Assembly: GCF_032362555.1 (NCBI RefSeq)
Contig: NC_083517.1
Span: forward strand, 5,786,001-5,850,000
Direction: 5' to 3'
Length of the DNA: 64,000 bases
DNA from: Amyelois transitella
Lineage: Eukaryota; Arthropoda; Insecta; Lepidoptera; Pyralidae
The translations under genes and the position numbers were made by a program. Positions within the stretch are counted from its first letter, which is position 1; every line of letters begins with the position of its first letter. A model generated the notes under the pieces. That model made no database searches and had not been told where the DNA came from. It saw only the letters and a program-made list of their open reading frames with translations. Shown in pieces: positions 19,720-55,613 of the stretch.

Positions 19720-22560
19720 TTATACTTTGCTTCCATCTCCTCTGTTTTTCGCAACAGTATGCACTAGAGAGGATGAAGCAACTTTCAGGTCGTATGCCCA
19801 GCCGATGCTCGCAAACATATCTAGTATAAGCGTGGTCAAGTTAAGTGTGTAGCCCAGTTCAGCTGCCTTATAGTCCCACGGGAACGTGTGGTGGTAGTTG
19901 TGCCAACCCTCACCCATAGCAACTACAGAAACTCCCCAATTTTCAGCTGGCATGATGTTACTGAAAGAAGAAAACGCATATATATATGTAAGTATATTAA
20001 TATTACCTACAAAAAAAGGGTGAAAATTAATTGGAATATCATGAACGTAGAATAAAATAATTGCCGATCTACACGTTTAAGTATCCTATAACAGTTCATG
20101 TTATACATACATACATACATACATATGATCACGTCTATATCCCTTGCGGGGTAGACAGAGCCAACAGTCTTGAAAAGACTGAATGGCCACGTTCAGCTAT
20201 TTGGCTTAATGATAGAACCGAGATTCAAATAGTGACAGGTTGCTAGCCCATCGCCTAAAAGAGGAATCCTAAGTTTATAAGCCTATCCCTTAGTCGCCTT
20301 TTACGACATCCATGGGAAAGAGATGGAGTGGTCCTATTCTTTTTTGTAATAGTGCCGGGAACCACACGGCAAATTCATGTTATATGAATTCTTTATATTA
20401 AGGAAAATAGGTTTGCTGGATATAAGTACAAACCTATATCGAGTTTCCTATGATGGGTTATAAATATAATATAAAATATTTACTATTTTATAGCTACTTA
20501 TGACTATAAATATAAAACTAAACATATAAAGTAAACAAATATCCATCCATCCCGTATTATAGGTAAATGCGAATTGAGTTTGTTGTTTGTTGCCTCTTCA
20601 CAGTACCTAAAACTGCTAAACCGATCTGCATAAACTTTAGCATCAGTACATATAGTGCGAAGTACGAACGAAGAAGGACATATTATTCACTCGGGCGGAG
20701 CCTCGGGTGAAACCTAGTAGAAGTAGTAGCCTTACCGGTCGTAGGGCTTATTGCCCCAAATATGCGCGAAGCTATTGACGGACCACGTGAAGTTGAGGCT
20801 GAACATATACCGCAGGAGTGGCTGAGAGAGTATCGCCAGGTCCCAGGTCTCATCCCAGAATATCACGGGTACAAGAGTCGGCAACAGAAAGCAGCAGGCC
20901 ATTTTAAATAGGTTGAAATATCTGAAAATAAGCGTGAATTGTTATATCGCATCAATAGTACATTGATTTGATTGGTATTACGGATGCATTAGTACTTTGT
21001 GTTATAAGTTTTTATTGTTTAAAAATTTTATACAGTAAAATAGTTTATAATATGGATTTTTCATGGCATCATTATTCAAATCTACTGAGAGGGAGTTACC
21101 TATTTTGATGCAAACATACAGTAACGTCCATTTCTCTACCTATTAAAAAAAATGGCTTACTTCGTGTGAAACCGTACAAGGGGATCGTTTTTGATATCAC
21201 TCATGTCAATCTTAGCTCCTTCCTTGAGCACGGCAGGGTGTTTCTTCATCATGAGCCAGCCGACGTGAGAGAAAAAGAACCCTCGTCTGGCATCGTGGGG
21301 ATCAGCTGAAGATTCAGAGAACTTATGGTGGACTCGGTGGTCGCGCACCCAGTTGTATATTGTGTTCTGTAATTTTTGATGTGGTTGATAAATCGTACTT
21401 CATTTGAAATCCGGCTGCTATTTGTTCATAAATGGTATAAGGTAAAAGGTAAAGGTACCTATTACAAAAACTTAAACAAATTTTAAAAATTAATTAGTGG
21501 ATTGGTTAATAAATTAAATTGTTATTAACCAATCCACTGTACTTAGTTTCATCGATTTCATTTATCAAATATACATCACGTCTTTGTCAACAGCCTTGAA
21601 TAGACTGGAAGCTATGTTTGACTTGAGATTCGGACACTCGTAATGACAAGTTGATATTACATGTATAAAATATAATAATAATAACAAACCTGTCCTGCTA
21701 TTGAGTAAGAAATGAGTAAAATGAACTGTAGTGGCAGTTTTGCTTTGTATGAACGATGGCACCAATACCGATGTGCTCCAGCGGTCACTCCAAATCCAGC
21801 AATTTGCCCCATTAGGAACGCTGAAAAATGAAAGTAAGAATTATTAAAATGCAAAAAGCTTACCTTTTCGAGTGTTGTGGTTCATTTTCAAGCAATTGAA
21901 AAAAGGTAATATTATTACATTTCGAATTCCTTTTTTTCAATTATCACTTTTTATTTATTTACTTTCCCAACCACAGTTCCCGAAATATATAGCAACTAGA
22001 GGCCGCGACTTCATCCGTATGGAAACCCTATCAATCCCGCAGGAATTCTGGGTATTCAGCTACCTACATATCAAATTTCATCGTAATCGGTTGAGTATTT
22101 TTGCGTGAAAGAGTAACAAACATCCATACTGACATACTCACAAACTTTCGCATTAATAATATTAGTAGGATGTAAAGGAAAAGAAATGTATTAAGTACCT
22201 ACTCGTATATACATACATATAAGTACTTAATGATTGAATCAGCAGGAACTTACCGAAGAGTATGGACTGCCATTTAGGGCTATGTATAAAACAAAGTGTG
22301 TATGAAAACCATGTGATGGCTACTATGTGGAGTAACGCTATTAATACGGTATCTTTCCATCGTATTGGGGTAACAAATCCTATGCGTTTTTCCCAATTTC
22401 TTACAATTGCCATGAATTTCGGCTCATTCTTTGGAAGCAAGTCGTCATACGGGCTGTGACTCAATGAGATATTTCTTGTGTTTGTTGCATGGTGTTTAAT
22501 TGTGTCATCGAGCTTCCATTTTCTGCAGTAGTGTTCTATGACAGACGTTTGAGTGGTCAT
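19720..22560 (-). CDS. Acyl-CoA desaturase, intact histidine boxes
   Basis: Membrane-bound fatty acyl-CoA desaturase of the ER (SCD/Desat family), inserting a double bond in acyl-CoA with electrons from cytochrome b5. Coding exons 22560-22254, 21820-21690, 21366-21161, 20921-20736 and 19960-19720 join to 356 aa. Di-iron ligands are all present: HRYWCH (119-124), HRVHH (156-160), HNYHH (297-301), plus N264 and H268 in VNSFAHIWG. The four-residue position used to sort moth desaturases (between PYDRNI and N) reads MPAE; regiospecificity cannot be told from it. Hydrophobic stretches match the usual four-helix fold. A good acceptor (TTTTGTTTTAG) ends at 22565, four bases before the ATG, so a 5' untranslated exon lies upstream and the LINE at 22591 is inside that 5' intron. 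Introns 2 and 4 contain SINE copies. Confidence 0.95.
20106..20373 (-). mobile_element. SINE family A copy with 11-bp target duplication
   Basis: Well-preserved copy in desaturase intron 4. Perfect TTCATGTTATA repeats at 20095-20105 and 20374-20384 mark the insertion. Confidence 0.9.
20545..20725 (-). repeat. Common moth interspersed repeat, partial
   Basis: Reverse strand begins near CTAGGTTTCACCCGAGGCTC and includes the AAACCGAT-type segment seen in a repeat that I recall as widespread in Lepidoptera. It lies in desaturase intron 4, ten bases from the end of exon 4. Confidence 0.45.
21496..21538. repeat. Perfect 17-bp inverted repeat, 9-base loop
   Basis: 21496-21512 pairs perfectly with 21522-21538. 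In desaturase intron 2. Confidence 0.9.
21572..21660 (-). mobile_element. SINE family A, decayed fragment
   Basis: Retains TCACGTCTTTGTCAACAG and TTGAGATTC-like pieces of the family in the right order. In desaturase intron 2. Confidence 0.55.
21975..22172 (+). repeat. Common moth interspersed repeat
   Basis: Contains ATTTCATCGTAATCGGTTGA, GCGTGAAAGAGTAACAAACA and ends in TTAATAATATTAGTAGGAT, a terminal sequence common among moth repeats. In desaturase intron 1. Possible end pieces of the same family lie near 41163-41225 and 45495-45560. Confidence 0.6.
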
Positions 22561-22590: not shown

Positions 22591-25500
22591 ATAAGTATAT
22601 ATAAGTATATATTATCTATTTATCTGCTGGGGCGGACAAAATTTTTCCCTAGCGTCTCGTGGGAATCGCATTATGAACCTTAAAAAGCATAGAAATGGCG
22701 GCGATGGTGTCCGCACCCCATCACGTCTCGTTCCCGGCGGGAGCGGTATGCGGTCTGCTGAAAGCCGCTTTGCGACGATGAATGTAAGAGGAGGAATGAA
22801 GGATAAGATTGAGGAAGTATGCCAGATGATGGATGAAAGACGTTTGGATGTGTTGTGCGTGAATGAAACGAAGCGGAAAGGATGCGACGCGACGCAGCAC
22901 GGCCCTTACACGGCGTATTGGTCTGGAATTTCCAGTACCAGCCGAGGCTGTCAAGGGGTCGGTCTAATTCTTTCTGCACGAATGGCTGAGTGCGTGAATG
23001 AGTATGAGTGTGTCAGCCCTCGTCTTCTATGGATTAGGCTGAAAGTTGGAATCACTCGGATCTTCGTTCTAGGTGTTTATGCACCTTGGGATGTGGGTTC
23101 GAGGGGTACAACATCAGCAAAAAGCGAAAACGAGGAGTTCTGGAATAGTGTAAGAGAAGTATTGAAAGTTACCAAGCCAAATGAGAAGATTATTATGTTA
23201 GGTGATTTTAATGGATGGGTGGGTGTAAAGCGTGATGGATATGAAAAGGTGCTTGGTGCGTTTGGTGACGAAAAGGTGAATGATAATGGAAGAAGTGTAT
23301 TAGAAATTTGTCTAGAGTGGGATCTTTTTGTGTCGAACTCAATGTTTCAACATAAAGAGATCCACACCTACACAAGAGTGGAAGGTATTTTAAAAAGTAT
23401 GATAGACTTTGTGATTGTAGATGAAAGATTGAAGAACAAAGTGCTGGATACCCGTGCATATCGCGGTGCTGGCATTGACTCGGACCATTTACTGGTGATA
23501 TCCCGGATAAGGGGTATCTTCAATCGCTGGCGGCACAGGGTAAGGGAGCAAACCAGCGCTTTGGAAAGAGTAAAAGTGGAAAATTTGCAAGATATGGATG
23601 TAGGTAAGAAGTATATTAATAGACTGAAGGATGAATTTGAAGATTTAGATGAAATAAGCGATATTGAAGATGGATGGAAGGAACTTAAAGAAAGAATTGT
23701 GAAAGTAGCTGTTGAAGTGTGTGGTGTAAGTAGAAGAAGGAAAGGAAAAAATCACAAAAATGCGTGGATGAGTAAAGATGTGCAAGAACTTGTGCGATTA
23801 AAGAAGAAAGCATGGCTGGATTTGTTAGCAGCAAAAGCTAACTTAAGAATGCAAGAGGTTATAGATGAAGATGTGAATGAAGCACGTAAGGAATATAAGA
23901 AAATGAAAGATTTGGTTAAGAAAGCTGTGATTAGAAAGAAAGAAGAGTATAAAGAGGATTTTGATAAAAGGCTATCAGAAGACTTTCAGTCAAATCTGAA
24001 AGTATTCTGGAAATCCGTAAGGTCAGCCCGAGGAAATACTATAACCAGAGAGCTGACTAGGATCAGATGCCAGGATGGTAGCGTTGTGAAAGGAGAAGAA
24101 TGTGTACTAAAGATATGGAAGGACTATTTTGAAAGTTTATTTGAAAAAAAGGAAGGAAATAAGAAAGATTTCTGCTATAGCGAAGAAAAAGAGAATGAGA
24201 TGGAAGGCGAAATTGAAATGTTCGAAATTGTGGAAGCACTTAAGAGTATGAAAGCGGGAAAGGCTGCTGGGTGTGATAGAGTGTCGGTCGAGATGCTTAA
24301 AGCAGGAAAAGGCGTAGTAGCTAGTCAGTTGTACTGCCTTTTCAATTTGTGTTGGAGAAGCGGCCGAGTACCAAAAGATTGGTGTAAGGCTGTTATCGTG
24401 CCACTTTACAAAGGAAAAGGGTCACAGCTGGACTGCAAAAATTATCGTGGTATAAGCCTGCTTAGCGTCGTCGGCAAATTGTATGCTAAGGTATTGATTA
24501 ATAGAGTCAGGAATGAAACTGATGACAAAATATGGGATGCTCAAGCGGGATTTCGAAAGGGAATGGGATGTACTGATCAGGTCTTTTCCTTGCGGTGCAT
24601 AGCCGAAAAGTTTTTGGCCAAGAGTCAAAAAGTCTATTGCACATTCGTAGATCTGGAAAAGGCCTATGACAGAGTTGAGAGGAATGAATTGTGGTCAGCA
24701 CTTTCTATGCATGGGGTGAGCAGTCTCTTAATACGAGCACTGAAATCCTTATATGAGGATTCGAGTGCTTGTGTCAGGATAAACGGAGCGCACACTGAGT
24801 GGTTTAAGATTGAGAAAGGCGTTAGGCAAGGATGTGTTGCGTCACCGTGGCTGTTCAACCTATTTATGGATAGCTGTTTGACAGATTTGAAAGAGTCTAA
24901 AAGTGGATTAAGGATGAATGAGTTACTCGTCAAATGTCTGCTCTATGCCGACGATCAGGTTATACTGGCGTCATCAGCGGAGGAGTTACAGGAGATGGTG
25001 AACTGTATGCATGAAGCTTTAAAAGAGAAAGGAATGAAAGTGAACGTAAGTAAAACTAAAACACTGGTTTTTGAAATGGAGAAAGAAATGACAGCATGTA
25101 ATATTTTGATTGGAGGAGAAAAAGTGGAGCAAGTGAAAGAGTTTGTATATCTAGGATCAAAGTTTACATCAGATGGCAAGTATGATAGTGATATTGAAAG
25201 GAGAGTGAACGCGGGGAACATGGTGAATGGAGCTTTGCATGCCTTTATGAGCAGTCAGAAACTATCCAAAAAGGCTCGACTGGCTGTGCACAGGGGCGTG
25301 TTGGTCCCGACATTAATGTATGGGAGTGAAAGTTGGGTATGGCAAAAGAAGCATGAAAGCAGAATAAATGCAGTGGAAATGAGAGCGTTAAGGAGTATGA
25401 TGGGTGTGAAATTGAGTGACAGGATAAGGAACAGCGTGATAAGGGAATGTTGTGATGTGAAAGAAGATGTAGTTACAGGAATAGAAAAGGGTATGTTAAG

Positions 25501-25788
25501 ATGGTTCGGTCATGTGGAGAGGATGAATGAAAGCAGGTTGACTAAGCAGATATACAAGGAGAGTGTGGAGGGAAAGGTCGGAGTGGGAAGACCTAGACGA
25601 ACGTATCTTGATCAAATTAAGGACGTCCTGGTAAAGGGTCAGGTCAAAAGTACCCGAAACCGCCGAGCTTGTATGAAGAGAGTTATGAATGTGGACGAAG
25701 CGAAAGAAGTATGCAGAGATCGTGGCAAGTGGAAAGAGGTAGTCTCTGCCTACCCCTCCGGGAAAGAGGCGTGATTTTATGTATTATG
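22591..25788 (+). mobile_element. Full-length RTE-like LINE retrotransposon
   Basis: A single 3.2-kb element with one open reading frame and a short 3' end, as usual for RTE elements. A perfect 12-bp direct repeat, TATCTATTTGAT, at 22579-22590 and 25789-25800 is the likely target duplication. The exact 5' edge is uncertain because 22591-22621 is AT-rich and repeats part of the duplication. It lies in the 5' intron of the desaturase, antisense to it, with its left edge 25 bases from the acceptor AG. Confidence 0.85.
22673..25774 (+). CDS. LINE polyprotein: endonuclease plus reverse transcriptase
   Basis: 1033-codon uninterrupted frame. The N-terminal half is an APE-type endonuclease with its catalytic signatures in place: MNVRGG, CVNETK, LGDFNGWVG and DSDHLLV. 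The reverse transcriptase follows, with GFRKGMGCTDQVF, FVDLEKAYDRV, GVRQGCVASPWLFNLFMD and the catalytic YADD in CLLYADDQVILASS. The C-terminal region has RWFGHVERMNESRL and GRPRRTY, typical of RTE-clade elements. No stop or frameshift breaks it, so the copy could be competent (inference). The true start may be an internal Met, since the first 35 codons show no domain. The frame ends GKEA-stop just before the ATGT-type tail. Confidence 0.93.
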   Translation: MNLKKHRNGGDGVRTPSRLVPGGSGMRSAESRFATMNVRGGMKDKIEEVCQMMDERRLDVLCVNETKRKGCDATQHGPYTAYWSGISSTSRGCQGVGLILSARMAECVNEYECVSPRLLWIRLKVGITRIFVLGVYAPWDVGSRGTTSAKSENEEFWNSVREVLKVTKPNEKIIMLGDFNGWVGVKRDGYEKVLGAFGDEKVNDNGRSVLEICLEWDLFVSNSMFQHKEIHTYTRVEGILKSMIDFVIVDERLKNKVLDTRAYRGAGIDSDHLLVISRIRGIFNRWRHRVREQTSALERVKVENLQDMDVGKKYINRLKDEFEDLDEISDIEDGWKELKERIVKVAVEVCGVSRRRKGKNHKNAWMSKDVQELVRLKKKAWLDLLAAKANLRMQEVIDEDVNEARKEYKKMKDLVKKAVIRKKEEYKEDFDKRLSEDFQSNLKVFWKSVRSARGNTITRELTRIRCQDGSVVKGEECVLKIWKDYFESLFEKKEGNKKDFCYSEEKENEMEGEIEMFEIVEALKSMKAGKAAGCDRVSVEMLKAGKGVVASQLYCLFNLCWRSGRVPKDWCKAVIVPLYKGKGSQLDCKNYRGISLLSVVGKLYAKVLINRVRNETDDKIWDAQAGFRKGMGCTDQVFSLRCIAEKFLAKSQKVYCTFVDLEKAYDRVERNELWSALSMHGVSSLLIRALKSLYEDSSACVRINGAHTEWFKIEKGVRQGCVASPWLFNLFMDSCLTDLKESKSGLRMNELLVKCLLYADDQVILASSAEELQEMVNCMHEALKEKGMKVNVSKTKTLVFEMEKEMTACNILIGGEKVEQVKEFVYLGSKFTSDGKYDSDIERRVNAGNMVNGALHAFMSSQKLSKKARLAVHRGVLVPTLMYGSESWVWQKKHESRINAVEMRALRSMMGVKLSDRIRNSVIRECCDVKEDVVTGIEKGMLRWFGHVERMNESRLTKQIYKESVEGKVGVGRPRRTYLDQIKDVLVKGQVKSTRNRRACMKRVMNVDEAKEVCRDRGKWKEVVSAYPSGKEA

Positions 25789-32700: not shown

Positions 32701-35241
32701 TGTACACAAGCCAATGCCTTTCTTTACACTTTCCTATCGTGGGCATGCTGGAAGAAATTTCTCTAGAAATAAGTAGTGCCCTTGTACTGAATTTCTCTTT
32801 ATTTTAAGTTTTTTTTTGCTAATTTTTCTTGTTGTACATAAATATATAAATAAAAATAAATAAATAAAGGCGTCCTTGAAATTTCTGAAGCATTTTGGCT
32901 TGCCGAAAGGCGTTCGATGCAGGCAGCTTACAATCTTTCATATCAACGAGTCGGTTTATTTCTAGAAGTGGAGATGATCTGAAATCGATCATCATTGTTG
33001 TAAGCTTTATTGCCTTAGCAGACCCGGTTAAGATAAATGCATCTATATATACGACATAAAATATTGTAAGGGCGGTTAAATCTCATGAAGAGATCTTTTC
33101 CAGTTAACAAGAAAGGAATACCCACATAAAAAGGCAGAAATAAGGTGTTGTGCTCTGCAGCAACGCCCCCTGTTGGAATTTTTGTTCTACCTATGGCAAT
33201 TTAATGTACAACAGAAGAACATTATGTACAAAAAACAATTTAGTATGTACGTACAGTAAATTTGAGAAAAAATGATACTTTATAGGGCGCTGCTAGAGAG
33301 TATACTCTACAGCAGCGCCACTCAGAATACTTACTTGTATTTATACTAGAACGCAATTTTTTTAATTAGAGGATGTACGAACGTTTATTAGTATGTACGT
33401 CTTAGAATAATAATGAAAATGTAAGCAACTATCGTTTTATCTAACTTTAAAAGAAAGACCGTAGTTAGGTATGTTGCAGTGAACACATCTTCTTTCCTGT
33501 CAATAAGGCAATTAATAAAGTAAGTACTAAATGAATTACACAGATTTTGTAACAGTAACAATTTCAGGAGAACTATATTGTCTGCCTTTTATTTTTTCAT
33601 TATGAATAAAAAAAACTAGCTTTTGCTAGGTAAGCTTTAAAAACGTAAAATCAATTAATTCGTTAAAAAATAATAAGGCTTTGCAAGGCATTTCTTTTAA
33701 AGTTAGATAAAACAAAAGTTGCTTACATTTTCAATATTATTCTAAGACGTACATACTAATAAACGTTCGTACATCGTCTAATTAAAAAATCAGCTTTCTA
33801 GTATAAATACAAGTAAGTATTCTGAGTGGCGCTGCTGTAGAGTATACTCTTTAGCAGCGCCCTATAAAGTATCATTTTTTCTCAAATTTACTGTACGTAC
33901 ATACTAAATTGTTTTTTGTACATAATGTTCTTCTGTTGTACATTAAATTGCCATAGGTAGAACAAAAATTCCAACAGGGGGCGTTGCTGCCGAGTACAAC
34001 ACGAAATAAGATAATGGAAGAGTACATACAGAAATATTGTAAAAAGATATCTGTCTTTCAGTCTACTCCAGCTTCGTAGCACTGGATCGCTGGCCAGACT
34101 GGAGGCGGCACTGGTTCCAGCGATGCCCGAGTGCGCGCCGCCCGTCGGGTTCGCCTCGGCCCGCGCTACCGACGTGCGATCAGCTTTGCTTCTCATAGTG
34201 GCTGGTTTGATTGCTGCCCTCCTACTGGGTAGGTATAACTTATTCTTCCTCCTGGCTTAGTTCCGGTTGCATCTTCACCTCTCTGGAGGAGAGCCTAGGA
34301 CTATGACCATGGATCCTAGATTGGGCGAGTCAGGTTTTTAGATGAAGCGACTCCCAAGTGACCTCTGCAAGCTTTGCAGGTAAACCTAACCCGTATTGGA
34401 TCCATGGTTACACATCCAATTGCCTGAATGTGCAGGTTTCCTCACGATGTTTTACCTCAGCAAGAGTATCGGTTAGTATTCAAACTAATGTACACGACTT
34501 TGAAAATAGTCTTTGGTTCATGGCCGAGGTGGGATTTGAACCTGTGCCTTTCTGCGCATCACGCATTTTAACTGGACACCTTGCCCATTCGATTACCAAC
34601 GCTCAAACTAGATATAAAATCTAGAACTATTAATAGATACAGAAATTAATTTCAGTCTAGGCTTTTCATTTCATTACAAATCCTAAAAATGGAATGGATT
34701 TTTTTCCGAACTGATATTTTATTGCAGCAGTTCAACGTACTTTTCAATGGAAAGCCCAATATTTTTTCCACATTGGCATTGTGTGCATATAATTTAATGA
34801 CACATGTGTTACACTCGGACGGATCATATTATGACCGCTACCTGCGATGAATTCATATCAGTGGTTTGGGGTGACTGAAATTTGTTGGTTCGTAGCACGT
34901 GGTGTAGCAATTTGTAACTACAGTTACGGTACGGTTACGATTTTGTGATTTATGTTAACTTCAATTTTATTAATAAGCAACACAGAATTGATTGGATGTA
35001 GGAATTAGTGGATCAACCTTTTGTGAATATTATTGTTACATATTGTATTTAAATTATCACAACAATGTATAAAATTACACATACATAAGAAAAATATGTT
35101 CCAATAAAATTTGTAAAGTTTTGTTAGTATAAAACGAATTTTGTATTTACAGGTATTGGCGAATATTGTTGGAAAAATAGAAAAGAGTTGGGACAATTTT
35201 TAGTAAAATGCTACAAACGTTTCTTAAGTTTAGTACACTAA
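26750..35241 (+). CDS. Ionotropic receptor (IR75/IR64a-like chemoreceptor)
   Basis: Variant ionotropic glutamate receptor of the insect IR family, expected in sensory-neuron membranes as a ligand-gated cation channel. Exons 26750-26912, 28047-28216, 28342-28930, 29536-29737, 29978-30148, 31112-31332, 31550-31761, 32025-32176, 32506-32625, 34062-34228 and 35153-35241 join to 751 aa. Order: signal peptide (1-20), amino-terminal domain, S1 lobe (TWTGLLGALMEQTVDLA; T and R kept in AVTAHPSRHNDMDF), M1 (about 459-480), pore loop with GILCQQGG, M3 with TYNAYAAFITSVLSV, S2 lobe, M4 (SALLLIVAGLIAALLLG) and a short tail. The S2 acidic glutamate ligand is not evident (KQDYAFFAGQ), as is common in IRs. 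STVRDIFLAPFS suggests the IR75/IR64a group; the subtype is unsure. Exon 3 carries an unusual Asn/Arg-rich stretch. Intron 8 is GC-AG (donor GCAAGT). AATAAA lies at 35380. Confidence 0.93.
27876..28018 (+). mobile_element. 5'-truncated RTE-like LINE, 3' end only
   Basis: Nearly identical to the last 140 bases of the full LINE, from GTACCCGAAACCGCCGAGCT to the ATGTATGT tail, with two small deletions. It lies in receptor intron 1, its tail ending about 28 bases before the exon 2 acceptor. Confidence 0.9.
29770..29815 (-). repeat. Possible tRNA-like SINE (family B) end fragment
   Basis: GGGTTTAGCCCGGTTGCATC resembles GGCTTAGTTCCGGTTGCATC at one end of the element at 34236-34620. In receptor intron 4. 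Short, so tentative. Confidence 0.35.
30695..30731. repeat. 13-bp inverted repeat, 11-base loop
   Basis: 30695-30707 pairs with 30719-30731 at 12 of 13 positions. In receptor intron 5. Confidence 0.75.
31056..31100 (+). mobile_element. Possible decayed RTE-like LINE 3' end
   Basis: CTAACCCGCAGAGAAAGGGG then CGTAATTTTATTTTG matches the LINE end CTACCCCTCCGGGAAAGAGG then CGTGATTTTATG at about three quarters of positions. It ends next to the receptor exon 6 acceptor (31111). Confidence 0.4.
33145..34002. mobile_element. 858-bp foldback DNA transposon with 8-bp target duplication
   Basis: Two arms of about 312 bases, 33145-33456 and 33691-34002, are inverted copies of each other with only scattered differences, separated by a 234-base spacer. 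The ends read GTGTTGT and ACAACAC. The perfect 8-bp direct repeat GAAATAAG lies at 33137-33144 and 34003-34010. There is no transposase frame, so it is non-autonomous. An 8-bp duplication fits hAT-type transposases, but the terminal sequence is not a typical hAT end. It sits in receptor intron 9, ending 59 bases before exon 10. Confidence 0.9.
34236..34620 (-). mobile_element. tRNA-like SINE (family B)
   Basis: On the minus strand it contains GGTTCAAATCC, a perfect polymerase III box-B-type sequence, about 60 bases in from the presumed 5' end, with GCGTTGGTAATCGAATGGG in the place of box A. The other end reads GATGCAACCGGAACTAAGCC. It lies in receptor intron 10. No clear target duplication. 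Confidence 0.65.
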
Positions 35242-35321
35242 TTTACGTCATCAATCAATTACTTTCTTAGAGATATTGTAGATAAACGTATTATGTGGAT
35301 TGAAGGCTTAAAAAATACAGC

Positions 35322-35352
35322 ATCTTCCTATATTATTAAAATATAGGAAGAT
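35322..35352. repeat. Perfect 13-bp inverted repeat, 5-base loop
   Basis: 35322-35334 pairs perfectly with 35340-35352, just upstream of the receptor AATAAA. Confidence 0.8.
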
Positions 35353-35712
35353 CGGAGATAAAGTGTTTTGACTGCGTAAAATAAAGCAAGTGTTGGGAGC
35401 TATTAGTAATGAAAGTGGAAAATGTTGCGTTTGCTACTGTACCTATTTTTTCATTAAATCAATGTACTATCTGCAGTCAATTGTTTCACTCGACTTCCTT
35501 TTCCCACACTATAAAGTATCACAGAATTATTAATAGAACTATTATTCTAATATCATCTGGAGCTTCAATTATTGTTTCGACCATGAGATAATACTTGTTA
35601 TTTTATGCTGTAACTTTAAGGAGTAACACATATACATACACAAATATCGTTTTTATCTGAGAGTTTAATTGGAGTTAGGGTAAAATAAATAGATATATAT
35701 TCTAAGCTAATA

Positions 35713-35754
35713 AGCAACATAATTTGACTGCTGAAACAGTCAAATTATGTTGCT
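35713..35754. repeat. Perfect 18-bp inverted repeat, 6-base loop
   Basis: 35713-35730 pairs perfectly with 35737-35754 around the loop CTGAAA. Confidence 0.9.
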
Positions 35755-36193
35755 ATTTAAAAATAAATAAACATGTGTGTTTATATATAGGTGTGATAGC
35801 GGCCTCAATTAATCTAGAATCCCCATAGGGAGAGCTGATTACAAGGACGATGTAGACACACAGTACACACTGAAATAACGAATTATCTCTCAAATAATAT
35901 TAGAACTGAAAAGATCTCTCTTTTAAGGGAAGACGAAGACGGTCACAAGACTCGAAAGCCTAGATGGAATGGAATGGAGAGAGTAGAGACAGGTTGCTGG
36001 CTTATTGCCTAAATAAGTAATCAAGCCATGCCCTATTACAGTTTGCGCGGGAAAACATATAGCTAGAAAAAATAGGAAAAAGGAGAAAAAAAATTTTTTT
36101 ACACTTCACAAGAGTAAGGTTAAATTCAAAAACAGTTAAGTAAAAAAAAAAGGATAATCTTACAAAATTGTACAAGTAAACTTAATACAAAAC

Positions 36194-39100
36194 TTAACCT
36201 CTCTGAAGGAAATGATCTTCTTGGATGGCTTTTTTACTGGCCAAAGTATCCAAGCAGGTTTGTAAGGGGAGTTTCGTTTTGGTTGTCATAGCCATGGCCT
36301 TTTGAAGTGTAGCCGTGTCGACAGTCCGAAGGTCAGTTGCGAGTCTTAGAGCTGCGAAAACGCGGATGAAGGCCGTTGTACATCCAGAATCTGTAAATTT
36401 TGTTGTCTTTCAGTTACGGAGTCATTAATAATATTAAAGTATAGTCTTATGGATCATCACATACTTATACTTGTTATAGAAAAGAAAATGTTGCACTGGG
36501 TCTGCGGAGTTTCGGGGAAAGATCGTGGGAGAAACTTCGGCATTCGCGACAGCCTTCATATCCATGACATAGCTGGCAAAATACAAAAGAGCCGTCTATG
36601 CTGGTACAGTTACGTCTTGTGGAAGACTGCAGAATATCCAGGGAGCAAATGACTTTTTATGACATTTCGGCCTTCGTCTAACAAATCGAAGCTTGACGCC
36701 GCGAATGATGATATACGTGGCAAAGGATATATTTCTTTCGGGAAATCTTAACGGGAGAGAAGCCTCGGATAAAAACCTGGTGTAATAATAAAACCCCACC
36801 CAGAAGAATTTGACTTGAGACATGCTAATTACTAACTAAATTAAAAAGGGCGCCCTGCGGGTATTTTTCATTAATTTCTCTTAGAACTGACTGACACTCC
36901 ACGATATAGTACTGAAACCTAAAATAGTGAATATTTTATGGTCTTTTTGGATTTTAAAGCAAAAGAAAAACAAGAATATCAAATCTGAATATACTGAACT
37001 GAGTGCCTATAGATGTAAGTCGATGAATAACTCATATATGGGTCAGTACCTAAGAAGAATGTTCGAAGAGATCTCTAATTCAATCACAATTTATGAAAAT
37101 AAAAATTTTCTTTTCTTACCATAAGTACCATATTCTCCCGATTTGTAATCATATGGCACCAAGTAGTGGTAGTGTGGCCAAAATGTTTTGGACAGAATGA
37201 ACACGGAGTTGGAATCCGGGGGAGACCTGAAATTAAAAATATGGCACTTTTAGTTATCGCATATTAATATCATATTTTGTATTTTTATCCATCGCTCGAG
37301 CGATTAAATGTCTTATGGAGAGATAAATTCATAATTTGATTAAGTTTATTAAAGAAAAATGATTTATTATTTAGTACATTAATTAAATACCAATAAAAAT
37401 CATTGTTCCCTTTGAATATGTTATTTGTAAATATTTTTTGATAGTAGCCAACTTTTAATTAGTCGGTTGGTAGTACATAGTTCAAAATAACGTCAAAATC
37501 AATACAAAAATATTTCAAATAATTATAAGATACGCTCTCTTTTTTCTTAAATAATTTCCACAAATTTCCTCTTACCATAAATTTTAAACTAAAAATACTA
37601 AAGTAAATAAAGCTTTATGTTAAACTGTCAATGGTAGGTACTGCTTCTTTTATTACTGCGTAAATGTGGCGCTCTATTCTATATAGAAACCTTTTCAGTC
37701 ACGGGGCTGCGGTGAATGAACGTTCCTCCTTTATAGAATCTTCAAAGGCTCTTTATAGGCTGATTACATAATCTTTATTTTATACTAGCTTCTTTCCTGC
37801 GACAGTTACATCACATCAAACAGTATTTTAGGGTCCATTATATTAAATATTTTTGAACTTGGGTCTCTAAATATACAAACTAAATATCTAAAATAAACTA
37901 AAACTAAATATAATTAAACTTTTATAAAAAGAAAATGAACATACATGCATACATACATATAGTCCTGTTTATATCCCTTGCGGGGTAGACAGAGCAAACA
38001 GTCTTGCGAAATTGAAAGTCCACGTTTAGCTTAATGATAGAATTGAGATTCAAATAGTGACAGGTTGCTAGCCCATCGCCTAAATGTAGATAGAGTATAT
38101 CCCTTAGTATTACGACATTCACGGGAAAGAGATTGAGTGATCCGATTTTTTTATATTTGTGCCGGGAACAGGGAACAAAAAGAAAATGAAATAACAATGA
38201 ATACTTTATCTGAAAAAATATGGTGGTCTTTTATCGAAATAGGTCCGTTTAGCTTTGATAGCTAACAGGACATATCTACACAGAAACAGATTTTCGCATT
38301 TATGAATTAGTATAAATGGTTTCAATCTATCAACCCCTTAAATGAATCATGAAATTATTTTTATTACAAAACGGAATATCTGCATGCAGTTTATTAGAGA
38401 AACTCACTTTTGTCCTGGCCTCAGTCCCCAGACACTAATGCCACTCTCCATGAGCCACGAAGCATGGAGAACGATCCCGTAACGCAGAAATCCCACCACA
38501 AACACAGAGCTAAGGATGGAATCGTTCCAGTATTCAAGTGGAGCGTTCAGCGGCAGTAACAAAAACAGTATCGGATACAATAACCAGTATATCCTGTGAA
38601 AAAAAAGCAAATAACCGAATAAAGTTTAGCATGTTATTCGAACCCTAACCTTGGACCGGGCACAGAATTATTAATGTAGTTCGCTTTTGCCAAAATTCCA
38701 CGAGCGTGATGCATCTTTTGAAGGATTGAAATTTTTGGAAGTTTGACTGACAGATAATGCTTTTAGCAATAAGTTCATCTATTGCAACTTTAGGGCCAAA
38801 TAAAGTTTTTAAATTTAATTATTAATATAAATACTCTCCCCAGAGCTCATGGATACTATCAACAACAATCTGATTAAACTGGTCCATATGTAAATGTCAA
38901 TCTTCTAAATTTATATTATCGTCTAAGGTCACCGCACTAAATAGGTTTCTAGGTTACATGAGTAGGTATACTGCACCCTCCATCCTGCAAAAAAGTCATA
39001 ACTACAAACGTGTTATTAACTTTTAATATTAACCTGATGAATTGGTGGCACTCAAGTCTGGGCACTCAACTATATTAATTTTAATATTGCGAAGTTACAC

Positions 39101-40791
39101 CTGTCGCCACTAATAAATATGAGATGCATTTTCTACGAACTTTTTTATATAATACATTTCCCTTTGATGGCTGTGATAGACTACATTCGATACGTGGTCA
39201 GATCAAGATTTTATTTTATCTGTATAACTAGTACGAAGTTAGAAATACTAATTTCAGGTGCCACATAAATAAGGTTATTCGAAGCTAACTAGCTTCAGAT
39301 AACCTTCTCCGCGAAATGTACAATGCAATAATGAAAACCAACTTTTATGTTTAGCTAGGAACTCGTCAAATAAGGTCGATTTAGAATTCAGTTAATAACC
39401 AACCTTAGTTGGTTTACAAGTAGGTTAATAAGTCACCTCGAAAAGTAACAATTGAAAACGTCCAAACACCGCTAACGTCGCATAGGCAAAAGACCAAACT
39501 TACTTCTTCTGGAACATGACGATTCCATCCTTCTCCAAGTCAGACATATCGATGCTCTCCCGCAGTTTCTCCTGCTGGGGGCTAAGTTTCCACAATCGAG
39601 TGAGGATGTGCGCATAAAGGAATCCTTTGTTGTGGTCATAAGGGTCGTTTTCTGTAGCAAAATGTTGGTGGTGCAGTCGATGGTGCCGGACCCACTCGTA
39701 AATGGAGCCCTAGAATTATATCGTAATATGTTTTACTGATTTTAAATAAAAAAGTTTAATTTCATAAAATTTAGGTTATTTAAAACAACGGAGCTTAGAT
39801 AAAGTGTGAACTTAATAAACAAATTCACTTCCGCACGTTTAGGAAATTGTCATACAATGAGGTTACCTTCTTACATTTTCTCTTAAAAAAACACCTAAGA
39901 CGCCATAAGAATAGCTTTATGTATCGGCAGATCGACGATCTTACGATCGATCGTAAAGAAGACGAGTAGTGAATCTTAATTCAGATTTCTGTGAAAGATA
40001 AAGTGCAGAGTCGGTCTTATTATGAAACCCTGCAGTACCGCTATCTTGATTTCTTTGAGTTCAGTAGAATTTTTGCTAAGCTAAACCTGTATTAGATTGT
40101 CTTTATTAAGCTATAATAAAGAAAATCTAATACAGGGTAAGCTTCGTGTAAAAACCTCACTTGCTCAATCCAGGCTCCATGGCGAAGGACGTACCCCGGG
40201 CGCCATTGTAGTGTGGTGAGGATGTAACCGGGATTAAAGTCAATAAAGAACTAATAAAGTACAACCTAGTAGGCGACTAAATTTAAAAAAATGTTACCTG
40301 GCCGGCCATAGTCTGAAAGAGCATCAGGGTGATTCTCAATCCTCGGCTCGCCTTGTAAGCCCCGTGAGCCCAAAGGCGATGTGCACCGGCAGTCACGCCC
40401 AGCACCGCGATTGAGGTCAGAAACATTACTGTAATAATTATATTTCAAATGGATTGTTAATTTTAGATTCTTTTTTGTCAAAAATTAAATAATTTTCCTT
40501 TATCAAATATTTTGTAAATTATTTAGCCCTATTTTTGTTTGAAACTACTTGTACTATCTTGCAAATGATTACTTTCAAATTTCAACTAAGACGATTTTCA
40601 TGAAGCAAGAAAAACAACTTACAAAACAACACCGTCAGCCATTGCACCTCAAACAGCAGCAACCAAAGCCCGTATAAAGACAGCAAGTGGATGTGTATGA
40701 AGAACAGCACTGCCGGCCAGTCCGCCTCGCGGACGTTGCTCAAGTTGCTGTTCGACTTGGGTTCCCCGTTCATGTCACTTTTTTCTGCCAT
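36194..40791 (-). CDS. Divergent desaturase-like protein lacking third histidine box
   Basis: Second acyl-CoA desaturase family member. Coding exons 40791-40623, 40428-40298, 39709-39504, 38593-38408, 37226-37120 and 36390-36194 join to 331 aa. Exons 2, 3 and 4 have exactly the lengths (131, 206, 186) and phases of the desaturase at 19720, proving common origin; its last exon is split by an extra intron. HRLWAH (73-78) and HRLHH (110-114) are kept. The third box is WPHYHY (247-252) in place of WHNYHH, found by anchoring on the shared DYK. The Asn and His of VNSFAHIWG are Glu218 and Ser222 in LMESGISVWG. Several di-iron ligands are thus missing, so normal desaturation is unlikely (inference). 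Frame and splice sites are intact, which argues against a dead gene. The C-terminus is about 20 residues longer than its relative. An acceptor TTTCTCTACAG ends four bases before the start region, implying a 5' untranslated exon. Confidence 0.9.
36425..36660 (+). pseudogene. Fragment of a second RTE-type LINE
   Basis: Translation contains LHWVCGVSGKDRGRN, then IRDSLHIHDIAGKIQKSRL and CWYSYVL, the C-terminal pattern of RTE/BovB reverse transcriptases (LRW.CGV..., SRLRWYGHV). It is a different lineage from the full-length LINE at 22591. It lies in intron 5 of the desaturase-like gene, antisense. Confidence 0.65.
37940..38176 (-). mobile_element. SINE family A copy with 14-bp target duplication
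   Basis: Somewhat diverged copy in intron 4 of the desaturase-like gene. Perfect AAAAAGAAAATGAA repeats at 37926-37939 and 38177-38190 flank it. Confidence 0.85.
39271..39306. repeat. 16-bp inverted repeat, 4-base loop
   Basis: 39271-39286 pairs with 39291-39306 at 14 of 16 positions, in intron 3 of the desaturase-like gene. Confidence 0.75.
40086..40136. repeat. 23-bp inverted repeat, 5-base loop
   Basis: 40086-40108 pairs with 40114-40136 at 22 of 23 positions, in intron 2 of the desaturase-like gene. Confidence 0.9.
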
Positions 40792-42634
40792 GATCGTCTG
40801 TAGAGAAACATGAAAAACAAATAGACAACAAACAAGTTGAACCTTTTTTTAAAAAGTTCATGACGCTTTAGTTATGTTCTTCCTGCTTTTAAATCTGAAG
40901 TTAACCATACAGATCTACTTGCTTCATACAAGCGAGCTGTAAATGTATTTTTAAATCATTTATGCACTTTCCCAAAGCTTTCGCTCGTTGGTTTGTATAT
41001 AAAGGAATTCCTATAGAGTACGCAGTAGTTAAATCGTTAGTTATTATTATTATTTTGAATTAAACCAACAATAGCTTCAGTAGGTTCCATTCACGGGAAG
41101 ATGTCCTTTTCTGTACACTACACTAACTATAAGTAGGTATTTCTGCAAATATTCATAGAGGTCCGTAGTTTTAACGTGAAAGACGGACAAACAAATACAT
41201 TTTCACATTTATAATATTAGTATGGATACTTCTAAATGTTACGGCGAGTCTTTTCTATACACTTTTGTGCCCGAAGAATATTTCCCGTTATGTAAAAATC
41301 CCTTAAATCCTCCCTTTGTCCCCGTAAACCATAAGTACAGGTATTATTAGGTACAATCGTAACCTAGATTACCTTTTAGTTCATATAAATCCGTAATATT
41401 TCTGAGTAATTTTCTAATTATGTTTAAATTGTTGTGGAAAATTTATTAAGAAGTAATACGAGATTTTGCTTCTAATATTTTAATTACAATTCATGCTTAT
41501 AATAAATATAAGGGGAATAAGGCAATAGACGCGATAAAACGTACCCACGTGACAATAATCACTTAGACGAGTCAGTTGACGGTTCATTTAATGATTTGCA
41601 AAAGTATTTGTAACTTTTAATAAATAAAATTATCTGAACAAAACAAAGTAACACGTACGTAAATATCAAGTATACACAGTTAACTGACGATGTAACAATT
41701 ATGCATTCGTGCAGTACCTACGTGCTGCCGGTAACCTTGCGCGTGCGATGCATTGTCCATACGAAAGCAGATTTAATTACGATGTTGTAGATTTATAAAA
41801 TGTGACGTCACTAACGCGTTGGCCCTAAAAGGATGATTCTTTTATAATATAATAATTAATAATTATCAATACTAATTTTTATTATTATATGCGTAAAATT
41901 GGATGGGAGTGATGTTTGCTTGAATCATGGAAATCTGAATAACTGATTGCAATGGTAATTTTAAATCAATTTTCCTCTTTCTTCAATTTTTTTCAGCAGC
42001 ATGCCTAAAATGTTAGTTTAAATAAGGTACACAAAGGGTCATAAAGAAACTAATTCTACAGGTTCCGTAAAGATTATGAAAACTTAGAGTGCGACTTTTT
42101 TCCATTATTACTAGAGTTTTGCACCAAAGAAAGAAAAATAGCATAGGCGTTGTTGTAACTTTAATCACACTCTAGAAAAAGATTGCTCATGATATAACAC
42201 CTTTTTGAACGACAGTTGTCAAGTGAATTGGGCATGTGCAACATTTTCTGCACATCCAAGTGCAGCACATAGTGATAAATAGTACCTAAGTAAACGTAGT
42301 AATAGATAGTCAAGTGCTATGATGTATGCTCTCTCACTCTTACCAATCAACGAGGGAGACGTGACCAGTGCTATGCCAGTGTATGAAGGAGCCAAACATA
42401 ATATTTGGTCTGGTTAGGGTAAGTTTACACTGATGATTGACTGACTCCTAAATAGAAAATAGTGGATGGGCCACTAATTTGAGGGAGTTTCACTATAGTG
42501 CATAGATGAAAGATCTCTTGCTAATTACAAAAGGCAAATATGGCGCAGGAATTTAAAAAAAACAAAACTGTATTCTTTATATCTGATCGAATCTTTATAT
42601 ATTACCGTGGACATTGTTTAAACCCATGTTTATA
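40792..42634. other. Upstream region of the desaturase-like gene
   Basis: No coding exon seen. The right end abuts the mariner element. A candidate promoter is listed separately. Confidence 0.5.
41755..41812 (-). promoter_or_regulatory. Candidate promoter: CRE palindrome plus TATA-like box
   Basis: On the minus strand the palindrome TGACGTCA (41810-41803) is followed at once by ATTTTATAAATC. This is a plausible CRE/TATA arrangement about 1 kb upstream of the desaturase-like start codon, with a 5' intron ending at 40796. Arrangement seen in sequence; function inferred. Confidence 0.3.
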
Positions 42635-43957
42635 TACATTCAGTCAGAAAAGTATCGGGAATGGATTATTTATTTATGGTTCCAAATTCAAATTTTTGTT
42701 TTTTTTGTTGTTGTTAGATTGGCAAAACTGTTTTCCATTTTGGCGCGGAGTTTGAGTTGCATCTGTTGTTTACATTAAATACAGTGCTATTTTTATTTAT
42801 ATCATATCTAGTGTGTATTGCTAATTTCATAATGGATAAAAACATCGAACAAAGAGTTTGTCTTAAATTTTGCATTGCCAATGGAATATCGTGTTCGGAG
42901 TCACTGAAAATGTTACAGAAGGCTTACGGTGAATCGACTTTATCAAAAACTCGTGCTTATGAGTGGTACAAAGCGTTCAAAAGCGGTCGAGATGTGATGG
43001 AAGATTTGCCTCGCTCTGGTAGGCCATCAACGTCTGCAACTGAAGTTAACATCGCAAAAGTGAAGGAAATAGTGACTGAAAATCCTCATTCAACTTTGAG
43101 AGAGATAGCCACCGAACTTTCTGTATCTCACGAGTTGATCCGTACCATTTTAACTAATAATTTGGGTATGAAACATGTTGCCGCTCGGCTAGTCCCAAAA
43201 GACCTGAATTTTTTCAAAAACTCAATCGCATGAGAGTCGCTGAGGACATGCTAGAACGAGTCAATTCCGACCCAACATTCATGAAACGCATTGTTACTGG
43301 TGACGAGACGTGGGTTTACGAGTTTGACATGCAAACTAGTCAACAAGCTTCGGAGTGGCGCCTTCCAACTGAACCAAAACCGAAAAAACCACGCCAAAGT
43401 CGTTCAAAAGTCAAAGTCATGTTGACTGTTTTCTTTGACTATCGCGGTGTTGTGCACTCGGAATTCTTGCCGGAAGGTCAAACGGTAAATAAGGAATATT
43501 ATTTGAGTGTTATGCGGCGTTTAAGAGAGCAAATCCGACGAAAAAGGCCAGATTTGTGGAAAGAAAATTCTTGGATTTTGCACCATGATAATGCACCTTC
43601 GCACAAGGCCATCATTGTGAACGAATTTTTAACCAAACACTCAACAAATACCATCGAGCAACCACCATATTCACCAGATATGGCTCCAGCCGACTTTTTT
43701 CTTTTTCCTAAACTCAAATTACCACTTCGTGGCACCCGTTTTCAATCGGTAGAAGACATAAAAGAGAATTCGCGGCGAGAACTGACCTCAATTCCGGAAA
43801 CAGCGTTTAAAAAATGTTTTGATGATTGGATTATTCGTTGGCGTAAGTGTATCGTTTCTAAAGGAGCATATTTTGAAGGTGATAAAATAAATTTGGATGA
43901 ATAACAAACAGTTTATGTATTATTGATCTTTTCCCGCTACTTTCTTGACAGAGTAGT
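42635..43957 (+). mobile_element. mariner DNA transposon
   Basis: About 1.3 kb. Imperfect terminal inverted repeats: CAGTCAGAAAAGTATCGGGA at 42641 on the left, and CTGTCAAGAAAGTAGCGGGA on the minus strand near 43950 on the right. TA dinucleotides lie outside both ends, as expected for mariner. Confidence 0.85.
42832..43904 (+). pseudogene. mariner transposase with one frameshift
   Basis: DD34D transposase in two overlapping frames. The first, from the Met at 42832 (MDKNIEQRVC), carries the helix-turn-helix DNA-binding half up to VPKDLNFF. The second continues from about 43215 and carries the catalytic core: TGDETWVYEFD, LHHDNAPSHKA and SPDMAPADFFLFPKLK, with 34 residues between the second and third Asp. 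The break falls in a run of six T at 43209-43214, where a single missing base explains it. All catalytic Asp residues survive, so this is a recently inactivated copy, or a sequencing error. Confidence 0.9.
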
Positions 43958-51549: not shown

Positions 51550-54500
51550 CTAAATAGTTTTATTATTATTGTCATTAACTGAAGTTATCTCAATGGTAGA
51601 GACAAATCGCCGCTTTGGTTGACATTCATTGACACAACTCAGCTTAGCTATTTCCGACACTGTGGCTGACCGTCTTCTCTTGCAAGCAGGTACTTCGTTA
51701 TCACTTTCGGAAGACTGTCGAATGAGCAACTTATCATCAAAAATGGTTTTCACGTCACTGATCACTTTCCCGTTGGAGTCCTCCGCGTGTTTTCGCTTTA
51801 TTTTTAAACTACTACCATTATTAAATGTAGCTTTTACGCTTCCTGCAATAAAAATATTTCAACAGTTACGAACTTTTATTGTTAGGTATGTACAAGTTAG
51901 TAAGCTTCTATTCATTTGCGAAAAAACGTGAAAATATTATCAATGACGTTTTATTGATAAGATCACTAAATGGTAACCTGTTTTCATTAAACAAACTGTA
52001 GTGTAGGTACTCTAATTTTCCCTTGATCATTTATATAAATGTTTGTTTCTGAATCCAAATAAAATAATACAAAGAAAAAAATGTTAAGACAGTAGAATAT
52101 CGCGAAAATATAAAGGTGTTCACTAATAAACCCTAAAAAAATATTAGGAATCAGTATGAGTTATCGCAGGATATTTCAATGAATAAGTGATATAAATAGT
52201 ACACTTATTATTCTGATGTCTGTGAATATACCTGAGTTTGGAGTAATTGAGGAGCTTGGCATACGTCCCAACGCAATCGCAGTGTATGAATATCGTTTGG
52301 GATCGTTCCGGTGCCGCCGGTAACAACACAACTGACTGATTGTCACCTGAAAATAAAGCATATGATAAAGGGGATTTAATATTGTCAAGTGTTGATTTCA
52401 CTAAGTATGTATAATTTAGCTAAACACACGAGGAAACCTTTAGCGGCATTTCAATTGCAAGGTCACTAATAAGTACTTTTATGGCGAGGGAAAGAAAACA
52501 TTCGGATTTTTTATGTAACAATAATTTAAGATAGATAGATATATAGATAAAACTCTTTATTGCACCATAAGAGTAAAACATACAAAACAACATAAAACAG
52601 ATAGGGATGGTACAAAGGCGGACTTATCGCTAATGCAATCTCTTCCAGTCAACCTTTGGGTGGAAGGAAACCAAACAGGAGATTGGCGTTGGCGCAGAGC
52701 AAGATAAATACATTTTTAAACATAATAAAATGCACACAGTATTTATATCTATATATAATACATTTAAATACACATAAATTCAGATAAATACATAATAATA
52801 ACCTATACTTAGGATAGAGTAGAAAGATAATGAGAACTAACGAGATTTTTGAAACTATCAATAGTCTGGGCTTTCCTGATAAGGATGCGTTAGAATGTTT
52901 AGAATCTCCTGTTGACAAAATTATAGAATCAGTGGCAGGACGCTCCGTGTAATCACTAATCCGTGTAATAGGACTAGCCAGGTAATTTACTAACGGTGAT
53001 AAGGTAAACCAGAAATCTTTCTGGTAAATCTTGATCTTAATCTTCTATCTAGAAAGACAGAGATTATAACTAGTATTAGAGTAGGCTTTGTAAACGTTGT
53101 TGAAAGAAGGAGAGTCTTGCCAGTACATAAGTAAGTCATTCAATTTGTTTCACCGAAATCCGTTGACTGATTGGCCTATGCGTATATAACTATATCAGCC
53201 ACCATTTTCTTTTTAATATTAAAAATTATCAAATGGATTGTCGATCTATATTGTATATGTATTAAAATTCAGTACAAAACACGTATTATACATTGAACTC
53301 TCATGTTACCTTCACATGCAAATGTTCAGGATATGTTTTAAGCCGAGCAAACATCATATCTGAAATCACGTGAACATATAATGTACAATGATTTTTTTTA
53401 AATTTAAATGTTGTATTACTTCTTTTTTTTATTAACCCATACCTTATTTGGATATTGTTCTTCTATTACCTGAAGGTTTTTCTTATTATTGCAAAATAGA
53501 AGTGTATCATGCCATTTTATGAAAGCAATATGTTCATTTGGCGCATATATTGTCTTATATTTGTTTACTCAGTGAAGCACAGCGACCCGAAATGGATTTT
53601 GGCCTCAGACATGAGATTCTTAATTCTATTTAAATTAAGTTATTGAAGTTAAATATTAATCTTCCGTGTATCAAAATATAAAAGCCCTTTTCTATGATTT
53701 GAAATAATTCGTTAGCTTCTAGCATCCACCAATCATTTGCATATATTGTTTTCTATTGTAACCTTGTCGTACCTACTCGAGTTCTGTGATTTAACGAATC
53801 TAAAACTTTTTATGATTTTCTCGGAATTTTAATACCGTATCTATAATATTTTCAAACGGTTAGTTAAAGGTTAACAGTACGTTCTTGTAATTTTTAATAA
53901 TTTTTTTTTGCTACATTATGTTGGAAAATTTCTTTTGATAGAATACCGACGAGCAGTATCGAAGCATTCTGAAGTTTTACCTAACTATACTGTTCGCAAA
54001 TTATAGAGAATTATTCTTGTGCCCGTAGTCTCGAAATTAATAAGAGCCACATTCAGCTTAGTGATGAACCTGAGATACTGATAGTCATATTGTTAGCCCA
54101 ACGCACTTAAAACACAATCCTATGTTTATTAGTATTTTTCTTGACTTTTACAATCTGCGCGGGAAGTGAACCAACTTTTTTTAGCATTCAAACCAGCATG
54201 GAAGTTTGCACTTAATGAGTGTGCATATTTCTACGTTTTATTGTAAAATAGTCTGGGAATAGTTTATAATAAGATCCTTTAATATAAATTTCATTTTCTA
54301 ACCTTAAAAGCATCTCTAAATTTATTGGACATAATGTGATAAAATATGGGATTGATGCACGTGGACATGTAGTAGAACACTCCTGAGATGTAGGTAAGGA
54401 AGGCGTACACCTTAAGAAGCAGCTTAGACTTGGCGATGTTGTTCTCGTCGGTGCCGTAGATAGCGACCAGTCTTTGTGCATGGAAAGGAGCCCAGCACAC

Positions 54501-55505
54501 GAAAAACGCTACCACCACTGCCACTGTAAAAAAATATTATTAATTATTGTGTGTTACAATTACAGAATTAACCATATTTTATAGGTGGTGGTGCATGAGG
54601 AAAAATAAAATAATTAATGTATCTATTTTAAGTGTATGAAATAAAACTTTTATTGAAAATAATGATATTACAATAAAAATATATTTAATTAAAAGTGGAT
54701 ACTAACCTAACATCTTGACAACCCTTTTTGTTGCCGCGTGTGGATTGCGACGGGCGGTGGTTGATATGTTACGGCTGTATTCGAAAAGAGATTGCTCTTG
54801 CATTTCCTTTTCAGCGCCTGCTTGTTTAAGGCGTAACCCAATAAGCAAATACAGAATAGAGATGAGAATCATCGGTGCGAGGAAGAAAAGGAATGTCGAT
54901 ATTTCAAAAGAGTGTTCGACTATAACCCGGGTCTGTAAGCACATGGCTATTCCATTATGATATGTAATGCCCAACTGTAGTGCTGGTGGTAATGCTAATA
55001 TGAAAGCTATCACCCATACGACACACACGTGTCTTACTGCACGAGAAAGATTCGACATTCTATGTGACATGAAAGGGTGGCATATAGCTAAATATCTTTC
55101 GACGGTAAATAAGGTTATGGTCAGTATGCTAGCGTTAGTGGACATTTCGGAAGCGAGGCCTCGCAACCAACAGAAGTTTGGACCGAAGATATAAGGCCAC
55201 TTTGACCAGATGTAGTATACTTCTTGTGGTATGCCACTGAGGAGTAATAACAGATCAGACATAGCTAGGCTAAACAGATAATAATTGGTAGCCGTGTGCA
55301 TTGTTTTATTGCGAACAATAACAAAGCAGGTAAATATGTTTCCTATTAGGCCGGTCACGAAAATGATGGCGTAAATGATTGTGACTGGAATGACAATGTA
55401 AAGCTCATCTCGTTGGGGTCCTAATATCTTAGTTGGATCTACCGAAGCCGCCAGCGAGGTGGACTCGTTGGCGGCTGTAGGCAAAATATCTTCGAATGAA
55501 CTCAT
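51550..55505 (-). CDS. Neuropeptide GPCR, pyrokinin/PBAN/CAPA receptor family
   Basis: Rhodopsin-like receptor of the neuromedin-U-receptor group; insect members bind pyrokinin, PBAN, diapause hormone or CAPA peptides at the plasma membrane. Exons 55505-54707, 54523-54303, 52346-52232 and 51842-51550 join to 475 aa. Exon 1 holds the N-terminus (NES glycosylation site at 14) and TM1-TM5 with TATNYYLFSLAMSDLLLLLS, the ERY motif in FTVERYLAICHPF and SHRMSNLSRAV. Exon 2 gives TM6 with FFVCWAPFHAQRL and TM7 with NPIFY. Exons 3 and 4 encode a long basic, Ser-rich cytoplasmic tail (HRNDPKRYS, CKRRRS, QPKRR). Which peptide it binds cannot be told. An acceptor at 55614 shows that the 5' UTR continues in an upstream exon. 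Intron 2 carries a LINE tail and a decayed SINE. Confidence 0.92.
52535..52720 (-). mobile_element. LINE-type 3' tail (second family)
   Basis: On the minus strand it contains AGCGATAAGTCCGCCTTTG and ends GGTGCAATAAAGAGTTT before a (TATC)n-like run, a common moth LINE 3' end (I recall it from jockey/CR1-like elements). It lies in GPCR intron 2. A related copy is at the right edge of the window. Confidence 0.6.
54005..54175 (-). mobile_element. SINE family A, decayed fragment
   Basis: Ordered remnants such as GCCACATTCAGCTTAGTGAT and TAGCCCAACGC match the family. In GPCR intron 2. Confidence 0.5.
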
Positions 55506-55613
55506 ATCTAATGTGGAAAGTTTAAATTTATATAGTTTTTGTCATGGTATAAATCTTCGGAGCAGATTTGATGCTTTGAAGAAACGTTCCAATGGTTCAC
55601 TTAGTGCGAGGAT

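Follow-up and report, generated by a model that had tools for sequence, protein, structure and literature searches.

An intact moth desaturase paralogue that has lost four di-iron ligand positions: a candidate pseudoenzyme

Can a fatty acyl desaturase gene lose part of its metal site and persist as a coding gene, and if so, what might its product do? The question is raised by a desaturase-like gene on the minus strand at positions 36194-40791 of a 64,000-nucleotide stretch of Amyelois transitella DNA, here called the window (C13:5786001-5850000, in a genome of 327 Mb and 33 contigs). The reading we favor, to which we assign a probability of roughly 0.58 from sequence, is that this gene, a paralogue within a loose row of desaturase genes, is now a fast-evolving, still-coding pseudoenzyme.

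The gene consists of six exons that, when spliced from 40791 to 36194, encode 331 codons plus a stop codon with no internal stops. All five introns, which range in size from 194 to 1181 nt, begin with GT and end with AG. Exon 1 (40623-40791; 169 nt) extends from the ATG to the first hydrophobic segment, exon 2 (40298-40428; 131 nt) carries histidine box 1, exon 3 (39504-39709; 206 nt) carries box 2, exon 4 (38408-38593; 186 nt) contains the region of the Asn/His pair, exon 5 (37120-37226; 107 nt) contains the box 3 region, and exon 6 (36194-36390; 197 nt) supplies the stop codon, all on the minus strand. A CAG resembling a splice acceptor is found 6 nt upstream of the ATG, suggesting that a non-coding 5'UTR exon precedes it. 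Chance is a poor source of such an open frame: none of 20,000 random six-piece sets of matched lengths, drawn from the window, produced one. The same strand harbors a canonical desaturase neighbor (19720-22560) with five exons, 356 aa, intact NSFAH and HNYHH motifs, and the signature MPAE. Exons 2-4 measure 131, 206, and 186 nt in both genes. Thus, splice reconstruction upholds two claims made in an earlier note on this DNA, namely, that a 331-codon frame runs uninterrupted over six exons and that exons 2-4 equal those of the canonical neighbor in length. The desaturase-like gene possesses one intron more than the neighbor does, a phase 1 intron that follows GEYGTY, toward the end of the coding sequence.

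Family membership follows from several comparisons. Specifically, the protein matches PF00487 with 32.7 bits against a curated cut-off of 29.7, and phmmer aligns about residues 22-297 to PDB chain 4zyo_A, human SCD1, with E = 1e-54. Given the PF00487 score above cut-off, the SCD1 homology, and the exons 2-4 held in common with the neighbor, the protein is, judged by sequence, an acyl-CoA First Desaturase by descent. Like animal SCD1 (4zyo/4ymk; PF00487), it retains boxes 1 and 2, the DP and PxDY motifs, and the hydrophobic segments; by hydropathy only, and at equal threshold, it displays about four hydrophobic regions versus three in the neighbor, where a functional desaturase would be expected to have four transmembrane helices. 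Unlike SCD1, it lacks the NxxxH and HxxHH ligand sets as well as the GEG that precedes box 3, and it is three residues shorter ahead of that box. Of the motifs that a working di-iron enzyme should have, the protein therefore carries HxxxxH (box 1) and HxxHH (box 2) but lacks NxxxH and the HxxHH of box 3.

To define the loss, we used the neighbor as the reference for ten ligand positions, a list that follows the SCD structure: two His in box 1, three His in box 2, the NxxxH pair of Asn and His, and three His in box 3. Six of the ten are retained in the desaturase-like gene. Box 1, HRLWAH (40364-40381, minus strand), is intact with both ligand His residues; box 2, HRLHH (39668-39682, minus strand), is intact with all three; and box 3 still has its middle His. 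The other four are gone. ESGIS (38434-38448, minus strand) replaces NSxxH, exchanging Asn for Glu and His for Ser, and PHYHY (37163-37177, minus strand) replaces HNYHH, exchanging the first His for Pro and the last for Tyr. Both changes had been claimed in the earlier note, as Glu/Ser in place of the Asn/His of NSFAH and as WPHYHY in place of WHNYHH, and both are found where they had been described. In SCD, according to PMC9485055, coordination of the di-iron centre is provided by four His motifs, and the Asn acts through a water; PMC8171932 describes the eight box His residues as essential.

Such changes could be illusory if the gene model or the assembly were wrong and the true transcript used other exons encoding a normal box 3. 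The evidence makes this very improbable. Exons 4-6 align to canonical exons, the four ligand changes are spread over two separate exons, and GT-AG borders occur at all introns. Moreover, another exon that restores box 3, which the earlier note had named as one finding that would overturn its interpretation, did not turn up in the genomic sequence: a six-frame pattern scan of positions 35000-42500 of the window (35.0-42.5 kb) recovered none encoding HNYHH. The same scan returned HVYHH at 36719, within intron 5, and HFHY, HSHQ, and HPHH at other places, but the surrounding translations bear no resemblance to a desaturase.

The other desaturases of this genome show how unusual the losses are. The Asn/His pair is intact in 15/15 covering units, as is box 3 in the 15/15 units that cover it, among 16 other desaturase units whose rows are pairwise tblastn projections onto the neighbor rather than full gene models. 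Of these 16, 13 cover box 1 and 15 cover box 2. The box 1 exon of L033 and L031 lies outside the sequence taken, and both rows were masked for the tree and left unmasked for the 42-column count given below; the N of L033 at column 124 is intron read-through. L032 lacks box 3 in the sequence taken, and L027a, which consists of box 3 only, was excluded from the tree. Several desaturase places on C9 (e.g., 3418390, 3437496, and 3440077) and one at C13:8080499 lie outside the comparison. Signature motifs of the paralogues (GATD, KPSE, and xxxQ types) fit the lepidopteran set given in PMC8063362, in support of a lepidopteran source.

Divergence of the desaturase-like gene extends beyond the ligands. 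Across 11 other genes, 47 columns are invariant; the desaturase-like gene keeps 30 of these and replaces 17, with no unaligned columns, whereas each of the 11 genes, in a leave-one-out control, retained at least 90% of its own invariant set. The 16-unit set yields 42 invariant columns, of which the gene keeps 25 and replaces 14; the other 3, at the C terminus, are unaligned. Retention is uneven: 19/24 invariant columns are kept before the C-terminal half versus 11/23 within it (Fisher p = 0.036). Identity to the paralogues compared is 28-42%. In the tree, the end branch of the protein measures 2.15 changes per site versus a median of 0.26 and is the longest, and thus the gene has evolved much faster than its relatives have; by the tool's own warning, the placement of so long a branch is unsure.

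On C13, the loose desaturase row comprises the neighbor, the desaturase-like gene, a third gene at ~5.8686-5.8755 Mb, and, on the opposite strand at 5.914 Mb, a gene of the GATD type. The last, L030, is Desat A2 by signature motif and lies ~87 kb from the desaturase-like gene. L030 has the highest identity to the desaturase-like protein (42% over 231 positions) and is its nearest row in the tree, with weak support (80/76). By contrast, all ten L030 ligands are intact, and L030 differs in its intron positions, both from exon 2 to exon 3 and close to the end. A 62% match to exon 2 at C13:5914114 was considered as a possible closer sister copy and rejected, L030 being canonical, with NSAAH and HNYHH. 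Because exon 2 of L030 matches that of the neighbor just as well, at 63% identity, the strong match is explained by exon 2 being conserved in general.

Two further observations concern desaturases elsewhere in the genome. At C9:3418390-3440753, several desaturase genes stand in tandem, a lineage expansion in which the portion read shows QPVE/LPVE-type signatures. L001 (C25:2148542-2149345), a desaturase with a 342-aa open frame and all ten ligands intact, is free of introns along the stretch that was matched and is possibly a retrocopy.

Is the desaturase-like gene simply decaying? According to PMC4298175, insect desaturases turn over rapidly, 15 species having 218 genes and a further 75 putative pseudogenes, and a pseudogene is recognized there by an interrupted frame, a length below 250 aa, or the lack of a desaturase domain. 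The desaturase-like gene, with 331 aa, an open frame, and a PF00487 match, has none of these features. Its composition is also that of coding sequence: GC3 is 0.599 versus 0.323 in its own introns; the neighbor's values are 0.51 versus 0.321. GC3 falls to 0.474 in the C-terminal part, a value that could be taken as a sign of local decay; that suggestion is countered by the same C-terminal fall in both canonical genes compared.

Simulated drift provides a second measure. Starting from the coding sequence of the neighbor and running until the four ligands had changed, 3000 runs accumulated on average 8.6 stops and 14.6 frameshifts; 0.57% had no stop, and 0/3000 were free of both stops and frameshifts. 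A repeat, with 1500 runs from each of two starts and an effective frameshift rate of 0.07 per substitution, gave stop-free shares of 0.6% (neighbor start) and 1% (L030 start) and clean shares of 0 and 0.0007, respectively. Together, the two simulations indicate that drift sufficient to remove four ligands adds about 7-9 stop codons, given a model in which composition at equilibrium is intron-like, transition bias is held constant, and the indel rate is assumed. With that expectation, and with GC3 at 0.60 versus 0.32 in introns, plain neutral decay is unlikely. The argument depends on the number of ligands lost: at two lost ligands, 7% and 13% of runs are still stop-free and about 2-3% are clean. 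Thus, one part of the earlier note's interpretation, iron-ligand loss in an intact, coding-like gene, is sustained by the open frame, the GT-AG introns, the paralogue comparison, and the decay simulations.

The simulations reject strict neutrality; they do not reject weak or changed constraint, nor weak selection that gave way to a brief neutral phase. A lineage-specific duplicate relaxed only recently, under weak constraint and on its way to becoming a pseudogene with its first stop or frameshift still to come, would produce much of what is observed, namely the longest branch in the tree, the 17/47 replaced columns, and the low identity to every paralogue compared, and the abundance of inactive or pseudogene desaturases in insects noted above (PMC4298175) makes that fate a familiar one. 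Against this explanation, pure drift to four lost ligands would leave several stops and frameshifts, and GC3 is far from intron composition. We consider it unlikely, though it deserves serious weight: the long branch and the replaced invariant columns would fit relaxed constraint as well as they would fit a pseudoenzyme with a role, and the 0.6 to 1% of drift runs that are stop-free at four lost ligands, with frameshifts ignored, also count against the pseudoenzyme reading.

If the gene is kept, its product could still be an enzyme. Boxes 1 and 2 are complete, the middle His of box 3 is retained, and, at or beside the lost ligand positions, a Glu has appeared at the former Asn of NxxxH and a His at the former Asn of box 3. 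Altered metal chemistry is therefore possible, with the six remaining His residues and the new Glu and His holding a single or rearranged metal site that remains oxidative. We judge this improbable. The Asn/His pair and two of the three box 3 His residues are gone, together with the GEG before box 3, and an active desaturase with such a ligand set was not found in the literature searched.

Returning to the preferred pseudoenzyme reading, because both ligand sets on the C-terminal side are broken, neither a two-iron centre nor desaturation by the known mechanism is expected, as judged from the family. The protein keeps the desaturase fold region and boxes 1 and 2 with four of the ten di-iron ligands gone; failing to assemble a two-iron centre, it would not desaturate fatty acyl chains. 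Beyond the sequence itself, we infer that catalysis is lost, that the gene is translated, and that a role without catalysis has been kept. Given that the first half and the hydrophobic segments are retained, the most likely residual role would be that of an acyl-CoA- or partner-binding membrane protein. Our preferred guess is a protein of the ER membrane that binds acyl-CoA or that pairs with and modulates an active desaturase of the same cell. We speculate further, and here regard the idea as rather doubtful, that a lepidopteran lineage has long kept a dead desaturase as a regulator, which would tune active desaturases of the same cell by binding acyl-CoA or as a dimer partner.

Inactive desaturases have precedents among moths. 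Park et al. in 2008 reportedly described an inactive desaturase transcript in Mamestra brassicae. PMC2584044 states that desaturase transcripts lacking activity are not rare in moths and that no activity was found for the SPVE and GATD transcripts of Lampronia capitella. The L. capitella proteins are reported to retain all three His boxes, and their inactivity is put forward there as a suggestion (PMC2584044), whereas the desaturase-like protein has lost two ligand sets. In the codling moth, PMC8063362 lists 27 desaturase genes, two or three of them possibly pseudogenes or assembly errors, and reports that 4/7 further desaturases tested in yeast had no detectable activity. Loss of NxxxH and most of box 3 in an intact desaturase gene was not found in the literature searched, which, because it covered few subscription papers, is no proof of novelty. 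A search for relatives in viral and genome contig collections (no insects) gave 7 and 18 pattern matches, respectively, none of which was confirmed, an outcome to be expected of such collections.

If it existed, a long-kept dead desaturase would be the animal desaturase counterpart of pseudokinases. Insect desaturase expansions are usually read as gains in lipid chemistry; a duplicate that remains a sound gene without the metal site would show that some yield non-catalytic proteins. Such duplicates would also affect the counting and naming of desaturase genes from PF00487 hits alone, and this one could offer a natural case for asking what role an iron-less desaturase scaffold can play.

The window contains further features. 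A LINE-like frame on the plus strand (22595-25774), uninterrupted for 1059 codons and encoding reverse transcriptase and endonuclease domains, starts ~35 bases upstream of the start codon of the neighboring desaturase, in opposite orientation. A mariner-like transposase, also on the plus strand (42718-43904), lies ~1.9 kb upstream of the start codon of the desaturase-like gene and is apparently frameshifted, as its HTH part and then its DDE part occupy two overlapping frames. Finally, a rhodopsin-type G-protein-coupled receptor exon is present on the minus strand at 54702-55541 (PF00001, E = 1.5e-37), and the frame listing points to a likely next exon of this receptor near 54291-54536.
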